A DNA stretch of 64,000 bases, taken from contig NZ_CP007128.1 in NCBI RefSeq assembly GCF_000522985.1, positions 2,650,220 through 2,714,219 on the forward strand, in the 5' to 3' direction. Made by a program: the position numbers and the translations under genes. The first letter of the stretch is position 1. Each line of letters opens with the position of its first letter. Under the pieces are notes generated by a model. It did not search any database and was not told the origin of the DNA. It was given only the letters and a program-made list of their open reading frames with translations. This DNA comes from Gemmatirosa kalamazoonensis. Lineage in GTDB: Bacteria > Gemmatimonadota > Gemmatimonadetes > Gemmatimonadales > Gemmatimonadaceae. This document shows positions 33,471-41,678 of this stretch, piece after piece.

Positions 33471-34748
33471 TCAGTGCTTCGCGTACGACTCCAGATCGAG
33501 GCCGAGCAGGAGCGTCGATGCGACGAGCACCGCGGAGATGAAGAACGGCACGCCGACGCCGAGCCGGTCGAACGTGAAGCCCGCGATCATCGGGTAGATC
33601 GCGCGCGACAGGCCGCCGAACGTCTGCTGCACGCCCATGTACAGCCCGCGCTCCTCGTTCGAGATCACGCGCGAGAGCAGCGCCGTCACGCACGGGAACG
33701 TGAACGCCGCGCCGAGCGGCATGAGCGCGACGGCGAGCGCGAGCTGCCAGTAGTGCACCGTCAGCGGCAGCGTGGCGAGGCCGATCGCCATGATGACGAG
33801 CCCCATGCGCGAGAGCTTCGCCTCGCCGAGCCAGTCCACGAGGCGGCCGAGGATGAGCGCGCGCGTGACGACCGAGATCACGCCGACGTACATGAAGAAG
33901 TAGCCGATCGTGCTCGCCGTCACGCCGTAGCGCACGGCGAGGAACAGCGCGAGGATCGAGTTCACGCCTTGGAACGCGCCGATCCCCACCGCGTAGATCC
34001 AGATCAGCCGCGACGCCGGCTCCGACGAGTGCGTGACGACGCGCGCCACCGCGGTCCCCGAGCGACGCGGCTTCGGCTTCCCGGCGTGCGCGCGCACGTC
34101 GTGCGACTCGGTGAGGTAGATGCCGCAGAAGATGATGTTGATCACGCACAGCGCCGCCGCGACGAGGCCCGGCCCGCCGATCTTGAGGCCCAGCGTCCAC
34201 GAGCCGAACACCGGGCCTAACGCGACGCCGGCGTTCGTCGCCGCGGAGAGCCAGCCGAGGCTCTTCGCGCGGTCCTGCGGCCGCGTCGCGTCGGCGACGT
34301 AGGCCTGGATCACGCCGACCGTGCCGCCGCCGGCGCCCTGCACGAGCCGCGACAGGAACAGCAGCCACAGCGTGTTCGCGAACCCGAAGATGACGTACGC
34401 CACCGCCGACGCGCCGAGTGCGATCATGAGCGCCGGCCGCCGTCCGAACTTGTCCGAGAATCGCCCCCACATCGGCGCGCTGAGGAGCTGCGCGACGGTG
34501 AACGCGGAGACGAGCAGCGCCGTGATCTGGCCGATGCCGACGTGGTAGCCGCCTAACGCGGCGACGTCGAAGCCGTTCCCGCCGAGCCGCTTCGCGTAGA
34601 ACGGCAGCTGCGGGATGATCATGAGGACGCCCACCATGTCGATGAACGCCGTGATCATGAGGACCACGAGCTTCCCGACGCCCTGCGGCGCCTCGCTCGC
34701 CGCGGCCTGCGCCGCGGGCGGGGGCGGCGGCGCGACGGCGCCCGTCAC
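33471..34748 (-). CDS. MFS transporter, DHA1-type
   Basis: The protein has 425 residues with 12 predicted membrane helices. The motif-A loop G-R-F-S-D-K-F-G-R-R-P lies between helices 2 and 3, and G-A-G-G-G-T lies in the fourth helix region. It is a drug or metabolite proton antiporter type. A Pro/Ala-rich N-terminus precedes the first helix. Its GTG overlaps the stop of the ABC permease (GTGA), so it is the last gene of the BMP transporter operon. Export of a nucleoside-like compound or drug is plausible; the substrate is not readable. Confidence 0.8.
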   Translation of the reverse strand: MTGAVAPPPPPAAQAAASEAPQGVGKLVVLMITAFIDMVGVLMIIPQLPFYAKRLGGNGFDVAALGGYHVGIGQITALLVSAFTVAQLLSAPMWGRFSDKFGRRPALMIALGASAVAYVIFGFANTLWLLFLSRLVQGAGGGTVGVIQAYVADATRPQDRAKSLGWLSAATNAGVALGPVFGSWTLGLKIGGPGLVAAALCVINIIFCGIYLTESHDVRAHAGKPKPRRSGTAVARVVTHSSEPASRLIWIYAVGIGAFQGVNSILALFLAVRYGVTASTIGYFFMYVGVISVVTRALILGRLVDWLGEAKLSRMGLVIMAIGLATLPLTVHYWQLALAVALMPLGAAFTFPCVTALLSRVISNEERGLYMGVQQTFGGLSRAIYPMIAGFTFDRLGVGVPFFISAVLVASTLLLGLDLESYAKH

Positions 34749-35635
34749 TCCGCCCTCCCGAGCGCCGCGGGCGGCGTCGCGCGCCCGACGACGCCGGCCA
34801 GCGCGACGATCGTGAGCACGTACGGGATCATCTCCACGAACTGCGACGGGATGAGCTGCGCGCCCTGCAGCTGGATCTGGAACGTCTCCGCCGCCGCGAA
34901 CAGCAGGCAGGCCGCGGCCACGCGCTTCGGGTCCCAACGGCCGAAGATCACCGCGGCGAGCGCGATGAACCCGCGCCCCGCCGTCATCCCGTCGGTGAAC
35001 TGGTGCTGGTCGAGCGCGAGGTACGCGCCGCCGAGCCCCGCCAGCATCCCCGACAGCGCGACGCCGAGCACCTTCACGCGCGGCACCGACACGCCCAACG
35101 ACGTCGCCGCCTCCGGCTTCTCGCCCACGGCGCGCGCCCGCAGCCCGAACGGCGTGCGGTAGAGCACCCACGCCACCGCCGGGATCGTGACGAGCCCGAT
35201 CCACACGAGCGGGTTCGCGAGCGAGTCGAGCAGCGACCCGAGCGCCGCGCTCCCCGTGTGCTCGCGCCCGAAGCCCGGCACGCGCGGCGAGTTCGACGAG
35301 CTGTCGAACGCGAAGCGCAGGAAGAAGCGCGTCACGCCGGTGGCGAGCAGGTTGAGCGCGACGCCCACCACGACCTGGTCGGCGCGGAAGCGCACCGCGG
35401 CGAGCGCGTAGAGCAGCGACAGCGCGAGCCCGCCGAGCAGCCCGCACGCGAGCCCTACCCACGGCGACCCCGCGAAGTAGCTCCCCACCGCCGCGGTGAA
35501 CGCGCCGGTGAGCATGAACCCCTCGAGCGTGAGCGCGATGACGCCCACGCGCTCGCTCATCACGCCCCCCGCCGCCGCGAGCAGGTACGGGATCACGATG
35601 CGCAGCGTCTGCGCGAGGAAGACGAGCACGATCAT
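34745..35635 (-). CDS. ABC transporter permease, BMP/nucleoside type (second)
   Basis: The protein has 296 residues and 8-9 membrane helices. The family pattern V-G-V-I-A-L-T-L-E-G-F-M-L near the start and G-L-R-A-R-A-V-G-E-K-P-E-A-A, a cytoplasmic ATPase-contact loop, match YufQ/NupQ-type permeases. It pairs with the other permease (35632) to form the channel of a nucleoside/purine importer. It overlaps both neighbours by 4 bp, showing tight coupling. Confidence 0.88.
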   Translation of the reverse strand: MIVLVFLAQTLRIVIPYLLAAAGGVMSERVGVIALTLEGFMLTGAFTAAVGSYFAGSPWVGLACGLLGGLALSLLYALAAVRFRADQVVVGVALNLLATGVTRFFLRFAFDSSSNSPRVPGFGREHTGSAALGSLLDSLANPLVWIGLVTIPAVAWVLYRTPFGLRARAVGEKPEAATSLGVSVPRVKVLGVALSGMLAGLGGAYLALDQHQFTDGMTAGRGFIALAAVIFGRWDPKRVAAACLLFAAAETFQIQLQGAQLIPSQFVEMIPYVLTIVALAGVVGRATPPAALGRAE

Positions 35636-36717
35636 GCCGCTTCTCCCGTCGCCGAGCGTCGCCGAGCCGACGCGCGCAGCAGCCGCTGCACCTCGGGCAC
35701 CGACGTCGCCATCGCGAGGATCACGACGGCCTGCAGCACCTCCACCATCTGCTTCGGCACGAGCGCGTTCACCGCGAGGCCGCCCTGCGACAGCGTGGCG
35801 AACAGCAGCGCGGCGAGCACCACGCCTAACGGATGGTTGCGGCCGACGAGCGCCACCGCGATGCCGAGGAAGCCGGAGCCGGTGGCGAATCCCTCCTCGT
35901 AGTAGTGCTTGTACCCGAGCACGTAGTTCAGTCCCCCGAGCCCGGCGAGCGCCCCCGAGAGCGCCATGGCGCGGATCCACACGCGGCCCACGCGCACGCC
36001 GCCGTACTCCGCGGCGTCCGGCTGCAGCCCCACCGCGCGCAGCTCGTAGCCGCCCCGCGTGCGGAACAGCAGCCACCACAGCGCCGCCGCCGCGGCCAGG
36101 GCGACGAGCAGCACCGTGTTCGCCGCCGATCCGGCGAACGCCGGGATCATCGCCGAGAGCCGCGGCATCGCGCCGACCGTGGTCTCCGGCGTGTGCAGCG
36201 TCTCCGGCACGTGCAGGTGCGACGCGACGACGTAGTTGAGCGCCGCGAGCACGACGAAGTTCATCATGATCGTGACGATCACCTCGCTCGCGCCGAACCG
36301 CGCGCGCAGCCATCCCGGGATCGCGCCCACCACGCCGCCGGCGAGCGCCGCCGCGACGAGGCACAGCGGCACGGCGAGGATCCCCGGCGTGCCGTTAGGC
36401 AGGCCGAGCGCGACGAGCGCCGCGGCGAAGCCGCCGGTCGCGAGCTGGCTCTCCGCGCCGACGTTGAACAGCCCCGCGCGTGCGGCGGCCGCGAACGCGA
36501 GCCCGGTGAACGTCAGCGTCGTCGCCTTGTACAGCACCTGCCCGAAGCCGTACGCGTTCCCCCACGTGCCCTCGAGCAGCAGCCGGTACACGGCGCCCGG
36601 CGACTGGCCGAACGTGAGGATCAGCAGGTCGCCGACGAGCACCGCGATCGCCAGCGCCATGAGCGCCGGCAGCAGCGCTTCTTGCAGCGGCGCGCGCATC
36701 CGCGAGCCCGCGCTCAC
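35632..36717 (-). CDS. ABC transporter permease, BMP/nucleoside type (first)
   Basis: The protein has 361 residues with about 9 helices. G-L-F-N-V-G-A-E-S-Q and G-Y-E-L-R-A-V-G-L-Q-P-D-A-A-E-Y are the hallmark periplasmic-side and ATPase-contact segments of YufP/NupP-type permeases. It follows the ATPase gene with a 4-bp overlap and precedes the second permease with another. It forms the import pore for the substrate captured by the BMP protein. Confidence 0.88.
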   Translation of the reverse strand: MSAGSRMRAPLQEALLPALMALAIAVLVGDLLILTFGQSPGAVYRLLLEGTWGNAYGFGQVLYKATTLTFTGLAFAAAARAGLFNVGAESQLATGGFAAALVALGLPNGTPGILAVPLCLVAAALAGGVVGAIPGWLRARFGASEVIVTIMMNFVVLAALNYVVASHLHVPETLHTPETTVGAMPRLSAMIPAFAGSAANTVLLVALAAAAALWWLLFRTRGGYELRAVGLQPDAAEYGGVRVGRVWIRAMALSGALAGLGGLNYVLGYKHYYEEGFATGSGFLGIAVALVGRNHPLGVVLAALLFATLSQGGLAVNALVPKQMVEVLQAVVILAMATSVPEVQRLLRASARRRSATGEAA

Positions 36718-38357
36718 GCGACCCGCTCCGACGCGGCGCCCGTCATGTACGGGCCGAGGATCTCCGCGCTCGCCTCGCCGCGCGGCAGCACGGTCGCGAA
36801 GCGGCCGCGGTACATCACCGCGATGCGGTCGGAGAGCGCCAGGATCTCCGCGAGATCGGCCGACACGAGCACGATCGCCTTGCCCTCGTCGCGCGCTCGG
36901 CGGAGCTGCGCGTGGATGAACTCGATCGCGCCGACGTCGACGCCGCGCGTCGGCTGCGCGGCGAGCAGCACGCGGTAGTCGCGCCCGGTCATCTCGCGCG
37001 CGACGACGATCTTCTGCTGGTTGCCGCCGGAGAGCGCGCGCGCGGGCAGCGCCGCGTCCGCGGGCCGGATGTCGAACGCCGCGATCTGACGTCGCGCGTT
37101 GTCGTCGATGCGGGGCGCGTCGAGCGACGCGCCGCGCGTGAAGCGGTGCTGGAGGCCGAGGATCAGGTTGTCGCCCACCGTGTAGTCGAGCACCAGCCCG
37201 CGGCGGTGCCGGTCTTCCGGCACGTGCGACAGCCCCGTGTCGGCGCGCTCGCGCACCCCGAGCGCGCCGACGTCCTGCCCGCCGAGCGCGACGCGCCCGC
37301 TCGCCGGCTGCGCGAGGCCGGCGATCGCCTCGATGAGCTCCGTCTGCCCGTTCCCCTCCACGCCGGCGATGCCGAAGATCTCGCCCGGCGATACGTCGAA
37401 CGAGACGCCGTCGACCTCGTTAGGCCGCCGCGCGCTCGGGACCACCAGATCGCGCACGACGAGCGCTGCCGGGCCGCTGCCCGAGCGGGGAGCGTGGAGC
37501 GTGGAGCGTGGAGCGCTCTCCATCGCGCTCGCGCCTAACAGGGCGGAAGCGTCGTCCGCTCCGCGCTCCACGCTCTCCGCTCCACGCTCGCTCGGCGCCG
37601 CGAGATGGTCGAGCGCGAGATTGACGTCGCGTCCCACCATCGCCTTCGCGATGTCGCGCGGCGTCGTGTCCTTCGTGCGGATGCGCTCCACCGTGCGACC
37701 GGCGCGCATCACCGTGATCGTGTCCGAGATCTCCACCACCTCGTCGAGCTTGTGCGTGATGAGCACCACCGTGCCGCCGCCGGCGGTGAGGCCGCGGAGC
37801 ACACGCCACAGCTCGCGCACCTCCGGCGGCGACAGCACGGCCGTCGGCTCGTCGAGGATCAGGATCTTCGCGCCGCGATAGAGCACCTTCAGGATCTCCA
37901 CCCGCTGCGCCTCGCCGACGCTGAGCTCCGACACGGGGCGCTCCGCGGGAACCGTGAGGCCGGTGCGCTCGCTCAGCGCGCAGACCTCGGCCACGGCGCG
38001 CTTGCGGTCGAGCGCCCATCCCTTCGTCAGCTCGCGGCCGAGCACCACGTTCTCCGCCACGGTGAGCGGCGGCACGAGCATGAAGTGCTGGTGCACCATG
38101 CCGACGCCCGCCGCGATCGCCTCCGCCGTCGACCACCCCGTCACGTCGCGCAGCGCGCCGTCGACCGCGACCTCGATCGTGCCCGCGTCGGGGGCGAACA
38201 TGCCCGCGAGCATGCGCATGAGCGTCGACTTGCCGGCGCCGTTCTCGCCGACGAGCGCGTGGATCTCGCCGGCCTCCACCTCGAGCGACGCGTCGCCGTT
38301 GGCCTGCACGGGCCCGAACGCCTTCGCGACGCCGGACACCCTGATCGAAAGTGCCAT
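36714..38357 (-). CDS. ABC transporter ATP-binding protein, double ATPase
   Basis: The protein has 547 residues with two ABC domains. Domain 1 has G-E-N-G-A-G-K-S-T, the signature L-S-V-G-E-A-Q-R and I-L-D-E-P-T. Domain 2 (after ~295) has a shortened P-loop region G-V-E-G-N-G-Q-T-E and the signature L-S-G-G-N-Q-Q-K, with A-A-Q-P-T-R-G-V-D in place of Walker B. This asymmetry is normal for the sugar/nucleoside import family, where one site is degenerate. The linker (~254-296) carries an unusual in-frame insert encoded by an inverted repeat. It overlaps the BMP gene by 1 bp. Confidence 0.9.
   Translation of the reverse strand: MALSIRVSGVAKAFGPVQANGDASLEVEAGEIHALVGENGAGKSTLMRMLAGMFAPDAGTIEVAVDGALRDVTGWSTAEAIAAGVGMVHQHFMLVPPLTVAENVVLGRELTKGWALDRKRAVAEVCALSERTGLTVPAERPVSELSVGEAQRVEILKVLYRGAKILILDEPTAVLSPPEVRELWRVLRGLTAGGGTVVLITHKLDEVVEISDTITVMRAGRTVERIRTKDTTPRDIAKAMVGRDVNLALDHLAAPSERGAESVERGADDASALLGASAMESAPRSTLHAPRSGSGPAALVVRDLVVPSARRPNEVDGVSFDVSPGEIFGIAGVEGNGQTELIEAIAGLAQPASGRVALGGQDVGALGVRERADTGLSHVPEDRHRRGLVLDYTVGDNLILGLQHRFTRGASLDAPRIDDNARRQIAAFDIRPADAALPARALSGGNQQKIVVAREMTGRDYRVLLAAQPTRGVDVGAIEFIHAQLRRARDEGKAIVLVSADLAEILALSDRIAVMYRGRFATVLPRGEASAEILGPYMTGAASERVA
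37488..37597. repeat. inverted-repeat insert inside the ABC ATPase linker
   Basis: The left arm is built of repeated GGAGCGT units (37491-37534) and the right arm of repeated CGCTCCA units (37557-37593). The arms pair imperfectly over ~35 bp. The insert keeps the frame and encodes a low-complexity A/S/R/E stretch between the two ATPase domains. It resembles the palindromic hairpins seen between other genes in this chromosome, but here it lies within a gene. Confidence 0.6.
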
Positions 38358-39394
38358 CAGCGTTCGGTGGGGACCTTGATGTAGCCGGCCACGATGGAGT
38401 CGCGAATGGTGCCGAGGCGCGCGCGCACCGCGTCGGGGATGAGCGCGCGGTTGTTCGCGTCGTAGATGTAGCCGACGCCGTTCTCCTTCAGCCCGAGCTG
38501 CAGGATCCCGCCGCGGAACGTGCCGTTCTTCACGGCGGCGATCGCGTCGTACACGGCGGCGTCGACGCCCTTCACCATCGACGTGAGGATGAACCCCGGC
38601 GCCTCCGAGTACTGATCGGCGTCCACGCCGATGGCGAGCTTGCCCGTCGCGCGCGCCGCCTCGAACACGCCGAGCCCCGTGGACCCCGACGCGTGGAAGA
38701 TGACGTTCGCGCCCGACTGGTACTGGCTCAGCGCCAGCTCCTTGCCGCGCCCGGGGTTGCGGAACGCCTCCGGGGTCACGCCGGCGTACTGCGCGATCAC
38801 CTGGCAGTCGGGGCAGACGTGCAGCACGCCGGCCCGGTAACCCGCCTCGAACTTGTGGATGAGCGGGATGTCCATGCCGCCGACGAAGCCCACCTTCTTC
38901 GACTTCCCGACGAGCGCCGCGAGCGCGCCGACGAGGTAGGACCCCTGCTCCTCGCGGAACTTCAGCGCCTCGAGGTTCGGGGGCGGGAGGACGGGGTTCC
39001 CCGCCGAGTCGGTGGCGACCGCGTAGTCGACCCCGGCGAAGCGGACGTTCGGGTACTCCTTCGCGAGCTGGGTCAGGTCGTCGGTGAAGATGAACCCGAC
39101 CCCGATCACGAGGTCCATCCCTTCCGCGGCGAGCAGCCGGAGCCCGGCCTCGCGGTCCGAGCCCTCGCCCGGCTCGATGAACCGGATGCGCGCGCCGAGG
39201 TCCTTCGCGGCCCGCTCCGCCCCGATGTACGCGCCGTCGTTGAACGACTTGTCGCCGCGCCCACCGACGTCGAACACGATGCCGACGTCGAGCCCTTCCG
39301 AGCCGGGAGGCTCGGCCGCCCCGGTCGGGTGCGCGAAGAGCAGCGCGACGTGCACGAGCAGCAGCGCGCCGATGACGAGCAGAAGCTTACGCAT
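38357..39394 (-). CDS. BMP-family substrate-binding lipoprotein-like protein
   Basis: The protein has 345 residues. The N-terminal hydrophobic signal ends near A-H-P-T-G-A; no lipobox Cys is seen. The mature part shows F-D-V-G-G-R-G-D-K-S-F-N-D, the BmpA/Med family signature, then G-V-G-F and V-G-F-V-G-G-M-D-I. It is the periplasmic receptor for nucleosides or purines, handing substrate to the permeases. It is the first gene of the operon bmp - ATPase - permease - permease - MFS. The start is ATG 39394; the open frame further upstream has no support. Confidence 0.85.
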   Translation of the reverse strand: MRKLLLVIGALLLVHVALLFAHPTGAAEPPGSEGLDVGIVFDVGGRGDKSFNDGAYIGAERAAKDLGARIRFIEPGEGSDREAGLRLLAAEGMDLVIGVGFIFTDDLTQLAKEYPNVRFAGVDYAVATDSAGNPVLPPPNLEALKFREEQGSYLVGALAALVGKSKKVGFVGGMDIPLIHKFEAGYRAGVLHVCPDCQVIAQYAGVTPEAFRNPGRGKELALSQYQSGANVIFHASGSTGLGVFEAARATGKLAIGVDADQYSEAPGFILTSMVKGVDAAVYDAIAAVKNGTFRGGILQLGLKENGVGYIYDANNRALIPDAVRARLGTIRDSIVAGYIKVPTER

Positions 39395-39544
39395 GGAGGT
39401 GCCGAAGAATAGTGCCGGCGCTCGGGCGAGGGGACCGGCCCGAACCGACCCTTGCGCGCCAATATGACGATCTCGACATTGGGCCACGGTTCAGCTCGCA
39501 AGAGCCGAGCTGGACCGTGCAGTCGAAGTAGCAGCGGAAACGTT

Positions 39545-39630
39545 CCGATCGAAAGGGCACCCCGGTCGTGAGGCCGGCTCGCAATGCCTGGGGTCTCGCC
39601 GGGGGCGAGACGGCCCGGCTGCCGAATCGG
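39545..39630 (+). promoter_or_regulatory. GEMM (cyclic-dinucleotide) riboswitch-like RNA
   Basis: Closing stem P1 pairs CCGAT (39545-39549) with ATCGG (39626-39630). Inside are AAAGGGCA-CC, a hairpin closed by CCGG with a GTGA (GNRA) tetraloop, then CGCAATGCC and GGGTCT. A second hairpin follows (GTCTCGCC with GGCGAGAC), and then GGCTGCCGA. This order matches the GEMM-I layout, whose consensus blocks are GGGCA, a GNRA hairpin, CGCAAAGCC and GGTTGCCGA. A 7-bp hairpin CCCGGGC/GCCCGGG (39646-39665) follows before the ribosome site and could be the switch arm. It lies 57 bp before a surface-protein gene, a typical GEMM target. Confidence 0.6.
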
Positions 39631-39686
39631 GTCGCACGACGGATCCCCGGGCCGCCGCGCCCGGGCCACCCCTTTCGGAGAACCTC

Positions 39687-41678
39687 ATGCCCTTCCGCCC
39701 CCGCCGGTCGGCGTTCGCGCCGCTGGCGTCGTTCCTCGTCGCCGCAGCTGCCGTCCTCGCGGTCGCCTGCGACAGCGGTCGCTCCATCGAGCCCGCGGCC
39801 ACCGCTCTCGGCCCGACCGCCAAGCCGAGCGCCACGTACATCCTGCCGGTCGGCTGCAACGCCATCACGACGAACTGCGGCGTCGTGACGTCCAATACCG
39901 GACCGGAGAGCGAGATCCTCAAGGTCTGCAAGATGTACCCGGCCGGCGTGAGCGGGCCCGCCGTGACCATGCACGTCGTCATCAAGCCGGGCAACGCGCT
40001 GCGGTTCGGCAGCCTTTCCGACTTCCTCGTCGAGGTCCAGCCGAACAGCTGCGTCAAGGTCTGGCAGAACGGGGAAGACATCGGCCCGAACCCAGACCTC
40101 GCGTCCGTGACCGAGGTCGTGCCGAATGGCTACGCCGCCTCCTTCAGCTACGTCACCGTGAAGCGGAATGGGCTGCGGGGTGACCCGGCGAGCCACGACT
40201 CGACGATCGCCGCCCCGATCACCGGCACCGGCAACTCGGTGACCGGGCTCGTGATCGGTGGCCCGTACCGCCCCGGGGCGGTCGTCGTCTTCACGAACAC
40301 GCCGCTCGTCGCGGCGCTCGGCGACTTCGTCTGGAACGACGCGAACGCGAACGGGATCCAGGATGCGGGCGAGGCCGGGATCGCCGGCGTGACGGTGACC
40401 GCCGTCGGGCCGAGCGGCACGCTCACCACGACCACCGACGCCGTCGGCCACTACGCGTTCACCGGGCTGACCCCGGGGAGCTACACCGTCAGCGTCACCG
40501 CGCCGGGTGGCTACGCCGCGTCGCCGACGGGGCAGGGGAGCGACCCGTCGACGGACAGCAACGTGAGCGGCGCCTCCGTCACGCTCGCCGCGGGCGCGAC
40601 GGACAACACGATCGACTTCGGCTTCTACCAGCCCGGCGCGATCGGCGACTTCGTGTGGAACGACCTGAACGCGAACGGCGTCCAGGACGCCGGCGAGCCG
40701 GGGATCCCGGGCGTCACGCTGACGTTGAAGCGTGGCAGCACCACGCTCGGCACGACGACGACGGACGCGAGCGGCAAGTACGCGTTCTCGAGCCTCGCCC
40801 CGGGCACGTACAGCGTCGTTCCCTCGGCGCCGGCCGGCTACAACGTCTCCGCGACCGATCAGGGCGCGAACGACGCCGTGGACAGCGACGCGAGCGGCGT
40901 GTCGGTGGTCGTGGTGAGCGGCACGACGAACAACGACCAGGACTTCGGCTACTACCAGCTCGGCTCCGTCGGCGACTTCGTCTGGAACGATCTGAACAAG
41001 AACGGCGTGCAGGACATGGGTGAGCCGGGGATCCCGGGCGTCACGGTGACGCTCGCGAAGGGCGCCGTCACGCAGACGACGACGACCGACGCGAACGGCA
41101 AGTACCTGTTCGCGAACCTCGCCGCCGGCACGTACACGGTGACGGTGAGCGGCACGCCGATCGGCTACGTCGCGTCGCCGACCGACGCGGGCTCGAACGA
41201 CGCGCTGGACAGCGACGGCAGCGGCGTGTCGGTCGCCGTCGCCGGGACGCAGAACCTCACGATCGACTTCGGCTTGTACGAGAAGACCGGCGGCGCGGCG
41301 TGCACGTACACGCAGGGCTACTGGAAGACCCACGAGGACAAGTGGCCCGCGCCGTACTCGCCGACCGCGCCGTGGATGACGCCGCAGAAGCAGGTCACCG
41401 GCCTGACGTGGGACGGCCTGTTCGACATCGCGCCGAAGGGCGGCAACTCGTACGTCCAGCTCGCGCACCAGTGGATGGCCGCGAAGCTGAACCGCGCGAA
41501 CGGCGCCCCGGTGAGCCCGTCGGTGCTCTCGACGCTGAACGCCGCCGAGGCGTGGCTGCTCGCGAACACGCCGACGAACGGCGCACTGCCGTCGATCAAG
41601 AACGCGCAGGCCGACGCGTGGATGGACGCGCTGGACACGTTCAACAACGGCCAGGCGGGCACGCCGCACTGCGACTGA
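39687..41678 (+). CDS. secreted SdrD B-like repeat lipoprotein
   Basis: The protein has 663 residues. The signal peptide ends in L-A-V-A-C, a lipobox, so it is probably lipid-anchored. After a ~190-residue N-domain come three SdrD_B/Cna_B-like repeats, each starting G-D-F-V-W-N-D-x-N-x-N-G-x-Q-D and with Y-x-F-x-x-L-x-P-G-x-Y. The C-terminal ~130 residues begin C-T-Y-T-Q-G-Y-W-K-T-H, a domain common in secreted proteins of diverse bacteria. The role is probably structural or adhesive at the cell surface. The GEMM-like RNA upstream suggests control by a cyclic dinucleotide. Confidence 0.8.
   Translation: MPFRPRRSAFAPLASFLVAAAAVLAVACDSGRSIEPAATALGPTAKPSATYILPVGCNAITTNCGVVTSNTGPESEILKVCKMYPAGVSGPAVTMHVVIKPGNALRFGSLSDFLVEVQPNSCVKVWQNGEDIGPNPDLASVTEVVPNGYAASFSYVTVKRNGLRGDPASHDSTIAAPITGTGNSVTGLVIGGPYRPGAVVVFTNTPLVAALGDFVWNDANANGIQDAGEAGIAGVTVTAVGPSGTLTTTTDAVGHYAFTGLTPGSYTVSVTAPGGYAASPTGQGSDPSTDSNVSGASVTLAAGATDNTIDFGFYQPGAIGDFVWNDLNANGVQDAGEPGIPGVTLTLKRGSTTLGTTTTDASGKYAFSSLAPGTYSVVPSAPAGYNVSATDQGANDAVDSDASGVSVVVVSGTTNNDQDFGYYQLGSVGDFVWNDLNKNGVQDMGEPGIPGVTVTLAKGAVTQTTTTDANGKYLFANLAAGTYTVTVSGTPIGYVASPTDAGSNDALDSDGSGVSVAVAGTQNLTIDFGLYEKTGGAACTYTQGYWKTHEDKWPAPYSPTAPWMTPQKQVTGLTWDGLFDIAPKGGNSYVQLAHQWMAAKLNRANGAPVSPSVLSTLNAAEAWLLANTPTNGALPSIKNAQADAWMDALDTFNNGQAGTPHCD

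Follow-up and report, generated by a model that had tools for sequence, protein, structure and literature searches.

A predicted type 2 c-di-GMP-I riboswitch ahead of a surface lipoprotein gene of Gemmatirosa kalamazoonensis and its proposed translational ON design

In this analysis of a 64-kb window (the whole stretch of 64,000 nucleotides of Gemmatirosa kalamazoonensis DNA that was analysed), the element at 39546-39626 is almost certainly a c-di-GMP-I riboswitch, of which ligand binding and an effect on expression are predicted. We lean, by a modest measure, towards a full mechanism in which this riboswitch, of the type 2 form, would turn on the translation of a surface lipoprotein as c-di-GMP rises. 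What is observed in this model is the aptamer with its pocket bases, the downstream gene and the complementary match of the aptamer's 5' strand to the ribosome-binding-site (RBS) region; the steps of switching are what we infer. The features are collected in Table 1.

Table 1. Features of the riboswitch, its leader and gene (window coordinates) and of tandem aptamer pairs in relatives (locus coordinates)
Feature	Position	Strand	Basis or remark
c-di-GMP-I (GEMM-I) type 2 aptamer including P1 (predicted)	39545..39630	+	RF01051 48.3 bits; Rfam core 39546-39626
P1 stem CCGAT/ATCGG	39545-39549 / 39626-39630	+	sequence
GGGCA	39555-39559	+	sequence
G20 (Vc2 numbering), separates c-di-GMP from cGAMP aptamers	39556	+	G 76/108, A 32/108
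GUGA tetraloop, GYRA type (a GNRA loop), caps P2 hairpin	39568-39571	+	sequence
CGCAATGCC (contains CGCAAT)	39580-39588	+	sequence
A47, A48, U49	39583..39585	+	U49 in place of near-invariant A
C92, pairs with ligand	39623	+	C in 108/108
Proposed anti-RBS strand, overlaps P1 and pocket	39542..39557	+	GTTC 39542-39545, TCGAAAGGG 39549-39557; minimum-energy fold
7-bp hairpin CCCGGGC/GCCCGGG, expression platform	39646..39665 (39646-39652 / 39659-39665)	+	without U tract
RBS region CCCTTTCGGAGAAC, complement of 39542-39557	39670..39683	+	Shine-Dalgarno GGAG 39677-39680
Lipoprotein gene, 663 aa	39687..41678	+	lipobox LAVAC, three SdrD_B domains, C-terminal CTYTQGYWKTH...GTPHC domain from 41301
Tandem A20/G48 + G20 aptamer pairs	L009 1343-1592; L014 724-995; L113 301-571; L120 1292-1565

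The aptamer and its expected ligand

The sequence-only reading had described 39545-39665 as a GEMM-I RNA from the order of its parts, and that order (P1, GGGCA, a GNRA hairpin, CGCAATGCC, a second hairpin and GGCTGCCGA) was borne out. The GEMM-I identity was established by a covariance-model search, in which Rfam family RF01051 (c-di-GMP-I) matched the forward strand at 39546-39626 over the full model (1-87) with 48.3 bits against a curated gathering score of 35 bits, and with an E-value of 2.2e-6 as computed over the whole 64-kb window. Among the 4,227 Rfam families that were compared with the window, no other match at the curated cut-off was found. In the aptamer, the second hairpin, GGGTCTC...GAGAC, is followed by GGCTGCCGA, and the P3 helix, GUCUCGC/GCGAGAC, is uninterrupted and does not carry the 11-nt tetraloop receptor. 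A GYRA loop without the receptor is the published definition of the type 2 c-di-GMP-I riboswitch (PMC11218506), and judged by its sequence, this aptamer is of that form. Its folding energy is ordinary (z -0.58), so that thermodynamics alone would be insufficient to detect it.

The host genome has 7,479,215 bases in four contigs, with the riboswitch on the contig of 5,311,527 bases; replicons of 5,312, 1,106, 1,041 and 21 kb were reported for G. kalamazoonensis KBS708 (PMC3974934). About 200 kb beyond the riboswitch, the genome has a second and stronger aptamer (RF01051, 69.6 bits), followed after 21 nt by an ORF whose product is a lipoprotein carrying Big_2 Ig-like domains.

Base counts for the pocket were taken from 108 aligned RF01051 sites of this genome and its relatives (a match was found in 37 of the 59 genomes searched, and three of the 108 sites score below the family cut-off), and the Vc2 numbering of the pocket positions is our own transfer. 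The ligand-contact bases G20, A47, A48 and C92 are all intact. A47 is present in every one of the 108 aptamers, 88 of which have A and 20 G at position 48, and the interhelical pair C44-G83 is formed here by C 39580 and G 39613, each base being found in 107 of the 108. Position 20 was described as the base that separates the c-di-GMP aptamers from those for cGAMP (PMC9481103, PMC6274999); because it is G here and A47, A48 and C92 are intact, the ligand to be expected is c-di-GMP rather than cGAMP. GGDEF domains number 22 in the genome, and there is one PilZ domain.

The lipoprotein gene and related loci in the phylum

The gene behind the aptamer had been taken to encode a secreted, adhesin-like protein, which agrees with its lipobox (LAVAC) and three SdrD_B domains (Pfam PF17210 in three stretches, E 2.8e-101). 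The reading frame begins 60 nt past the aptamer, with GGAG six bases ahead of the ATG. The C-terminal TQGYWK domain gave no match at the curated cut-off in Pfam or NCBIfam and none in the PDB, either by fold (best E 6.1) or by sequence profile; its AlphaFold model is mostly helical with a mean pLDDT of 73.7. When used alone as a query, this domain was found in 12 genes of 11 of the 298 phylum genomes, and one further gene brought the number to 13. RF01051 stands directly ahead of five of these 13 genes (the one described here, L144, L145, L220 and L223), and for two of the remaining eight, on L218 and L224, little upstream DNA was visible because the domain match begins within 800 bases of the contig start. 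In Geomesophilobacter sediminis, a c-di-GMP-I-GGC riboswitch (RF03167, 70.1 bits; L035 5348-5432) was observed just after a gene with both SdrD_B and TQGYWK domains.

On the other side of the riboswitch, the minus strand at 34745-39487 encodes a Bmp-family substrate-binding protein (PF02608) beside ABC transporter ORFs, divergent from the riboswitch gene. Between the Bmp-family gene and the riboswitch lies a near-perfect 14-bp palindrome (39484-39520; hairpin -27.8 kcal/mol, z -3.99). It was rejected as a repeated element, being present in a single copy in the genome, and is possibly an operator.

At least one RF01051 match was found in 150 of the 298 Gemmatimonadota genomes sampled. A crude text rule assigned 29 of the 108 aligned sites to type 2, to which L167 is to be added, and by a similarly crude rule a lipobox protein stands behind 38 of 58 type 1 and 7 of 16 type 2 G20 sites with a called ORF. 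Where a type 2 aptamer has the cGAMP-type base A20 (L134, L155, L158, L161 and L167), the protein behind it is small (103-104 aa) and carries a STAS-like motif. The G20 aptamers mostly precede lipoproteins, the exceptions at L026, L275 and L276 standing before small STAS-like proteins of this sort. Additionally, a curlin-repeat protein (PF07012, E 4.5e-20) is encoded 54 nt behind a type 2 c-di-GMP-I aptamer (L266 270-1340).

Several loci carry more than one aptamer. Near-identical type 2 aptamers 84-90 nt apart were observed as tandem pairs before a lipoprotein at L293 (G319:C48) and L299 (G383:C120). Tandem pairs of another make-up occur in a sister family: first an A20/G48 aptamer (CAGAGCA...GACGCAGAGC), then a canonical G20 aptamer, with a lipoprotein behind them; G48 occurs in 19 of the 32 A20 aptamers of the 108-site alignment versus one G20 aptamer. 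Two-ligand control by these pairs is possible, and the pairing is not among the logic gates noted from PMC9481103. At L131 2501-2903 and L132 301-703, a lipoprotein is preceded by three A20/G48 aptamers in tandem, spaced by about 157 nt.

Proposed translational control

In the proposed ON switch, GUUC and UCGAAAGGG (39542-39557) would pair, without ligand, with CCCUUUCGG and GAAC (39670-39683), in a helix that would cover three of the four GGAG bases and pull G20 out of the pocket. Bound c-di-GMP would keep 39542-39557 in P1 and the pocket, and the RBS would be freed. The minimum-energy folds of 39536-39695 and 39541-39690 do not contain the aptamer; minimum-energy pairing across the Shine-Dalgarno (SD) sequence joins 39542-39545 with 39680-39683, the GUUC pairing being read from an unconstrained fold, and 39549-39557 with 39670-39678. 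The duplex of 39542-39557 with the RBS region has a predicted energy of -16.2 kcal/mol. In longer spans, this helix was lost from the predicted ensemble (probability 0.14 down to 0.00), and the modelled ON state opened GGAG little. The probabilities for the longer spans, and those for the four fold windows below, come from a calculation in which the P1 constraint and the P3 register stood one base off, and nothing but helix probabilities was taken from it. At this site the SD was predicted to be more accessible with the real aptamer than with most of its shuffled versions, which gives the model no support, and among 63 leaders that satisfied the filters on gap and SD no effect of the aptamer on SD burial was found.

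The idea that the 5' strand pairs with the RBS derives from a recurrence in the type 2 relatives, in which the strand before or in P1 is often CUCCUUCCGACA and the RBS is often UGUCGAAGGAG, in which the SD is joined to a copy of the P1 3' strand. The present site is without the CTCC tract that many relatives carry, and the shuffle chance of its 8-nt match alone is 0.03-0.08. In 34 type 2 leaders (29 G20 and five A20), the longest exact complement between the 5' strand and the SD region averaged 4.68, which was reached by none of 300 sets of shuffled 5' strands (mean 4.17) and by one of 300 sets of shuffled SD regions (mean 4.29). The 58 type 1 leaders gave no signal (3.86 versus 3.83 shuffled, 126/300). 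The ORF starts in these leader sets, and in the held-out sets below, come from simple rules, and a part of them is in error.

Because the 34 leaders had prompted the idea, a held-out test and its threshold (fewer than 5/300) were fixed beforehand. For the held-out leaders, 21 loci were fetched from a single family (f6); a further family (f5) gave only sites that had already been used. The planned test, with nine leaders, missed the threshold (13/300 for 5' shuffles, 53/300 for SD shuffles and 42/300 for swaps); several leaders had been lost from it through too narrow a rule for the 3' end of the aptamer and through wrong starts. An enlarged set, for which the rules were chosen afterwards, held 18 leaders, with three sites that had no acceptable start dropped and one leader of a tandem pair counted twice with the same RBS. 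Their longest match averaged 4.72, compared to 4.30 for 5' shuffles (3/300) and 4.31 for SD shuffles (7/300), and in duplex energy 4/300 and 0/300 shuffles were as good. A CTCC, TCCT or CCTT tract was present in the 5' flank of 15 of the 18 leaders versus 10.6 in shuffles. Swapped leaders were nearly as good (22/300 for the 34 leaders and 50-59/300 for the 18), so pairwise covariation of the 5' strand and the RBS is not demonstrated. A covariation test of 29 leaders gave p 0.028 with tight windows, and with wider windows the covariation and duplex tests were not significant (p 0.58-0.75). A subset of 21 leaders that was picked after the sequences had been viewed was given no weight. Overall, these comparisons make it probable that the complementarity is a real feature of the type 2 leaders as a class.

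A more general proposal, which we make tentatively and think more doubtful than not, is that the type 2 c-di-GMP-I riboswitches of the Gemmatimonadota share this translational ON design. The P1 5' strand would serve as the anti-Shine-Dalgarno and the RBS would copy the P1 3' strand, as in GUCGAAGGAG, driving a c-di-GMP regulon of surface lipoproteins that would include an undescribed TQGYWK...GPGHC family.

The control might instead be transcriptional, with the hairpin at 39646-39665 acting as an attenuator whose 5' arm is captured, without ligand, by the 3' strand of the aptamer P3; we consider this unlikely. GCCCGG (39613-39618) pairs with the 5' arm of the hairpin at a probability of 0.64-0.99 in four fold windows, and this much of the earlier suggestion that the 7-bp hairpin is the switching arm stood, whereas the comparative support falls on 39670-39683 instead. 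Several relatives also have a hairpin with a short run of C/U behind it. However, a scan of 39380-39740 for intrinsic terminators found no terminator-like site, the hairpin has no U tract and the segment from the aptamer to the SD folds ordinarily here (z 0.63). Across 22 leaders, a conserved strong hairpin was looked for in that segment, which folded only weakly better than shuffles (mean z -0.70, with -0.47 for the coding control).

The A49U change and the relation to known systems

The T at 39585, in CGCAAT, corresponds to A49U, a change in J2-3 of a base that is conserved without defining the family; position 49 is A in 106 of the 108 aptamers, T in one (this site) and G in one. In the Vc2 structure, A49 was described as making a conserved A-minor contact with C22-G45 and supporting the stacking of A47 between the bases of the ligand (PMC3764141). 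Since A49 is thus an A-minor brace beside the pocket and not a base of ligand choice, altered affinity or stability is likelier than an altered ligand. In terms of the ON model, one brace of the pocket would be lost and the response would probably be moved to higher c-di-GMP. The CGCAATGCC pattern was found at 44 places in 42 of 395 phylum genomes, and by eye only the present site encloses an aptamer hairpin; the same pattern with CGCAAAGCC matched in 80 of the 395, in genomes of several families, and many of these matches enclose a similar hairpin. From these counts, U49 looks like a private change within a widespread aptamer sublineage.

U49 could also be a sign of a decaying aptamer and as such count against the ON model: the change would have weakened the pocket so far that the cellular response of the RNA is lost. 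The near-invariance of A49 and the single enclosed hairpin among the 44 CGCAATGCC occurrences are consistent with decay, as is the score, the lower of the two aptamers in this genome. Nevertheless, the pocket bases are otherwise intact, as are the two helices and the P1 stem; the downstream gene is intact too and is of the class that such riboswitches precede, and we judge decay to be distinctly unlikely. Drift and selection on U49 are indistinguishable here because the relatives included no second genome of the genus. That A49U confers a different ligand, such as cGAMP or another cyclic dinucleotide, is very improbable: the change does sit in the junction beside A47 and A48, and altered-ligand variants are known in the GEMM-I family (PMC7266159), with RF03167 as an Rfam variant family, but cGAMP aptamers carry A20 where this RNA has G, RF03167 scored below its cut-off with a G in the model at A47, and A49 touches the C22-G45 pair and not the ligand (PMC3764141). 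The claim of the sequence-only reading that CGCAAT might change ligand choice was therefore rejected, with G at position 20 and A49 as a structural brace.

The aptamer itself belongs to a known class, and what is new here leaves that unchanged: U49 as a private change, the association with the TQGYWK domain and the ON design that is proposed to be shared. A search of one literature collection for riboswitches in Gemmatimonadetes or Gemmatimonadota found no report on c-di-GMP, the Gemmatimonadota results being judged by title and abstract, and experimental verification was described as covering only a few of the predicted c-di-GMP riboswitches (PMC11218506). Through this riboswitch, c-di-GMP control of surface lipoproteins would be tied to a soil bacterium that is named and in culture, from a phylum that has been little studied. 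The natural A49U aptamer offers a means to gauge the contribution of the A-minor brace to the binding of c-di-GMP.

With the type 2 members of RF01051, this aptamer shares a score above the cut-off, all of the helices, G20, A47, A48 and C92, C44 and G83, and a GUGA loop without a receptor, but it differs from them in U49, where 106 of the 108 carry A. RF03167 (c-di-GMP-I-GGC) belongs to the same clan, scored 44.5 bits and, in two scans of short stretches, was the entry of that clan retained by E-value; however, that score is under its cut-off of 59, and the model has G where A47 stands here. The cGAMP riboswitches (GEMM-Ib, such as that of G. metallireducens pilM) are alike in overall fold and differ in having A20 (PMC9262584), in contrast to G20 (39556) here. 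Vc1-gbpA of V. cholerae also lies ahead of a gene for a secreted protein, with no terminator found (PMC4744006). Vc1 has a tetraloop with its receptor, and the paper saw no anti-SD there, whereas an anti-SD is proposed here. Vc1-gbpA is nevertheless a precedent for an ON switch, in that expression of the secreted protein falls as c-di-GMP falls (PMC4744006).
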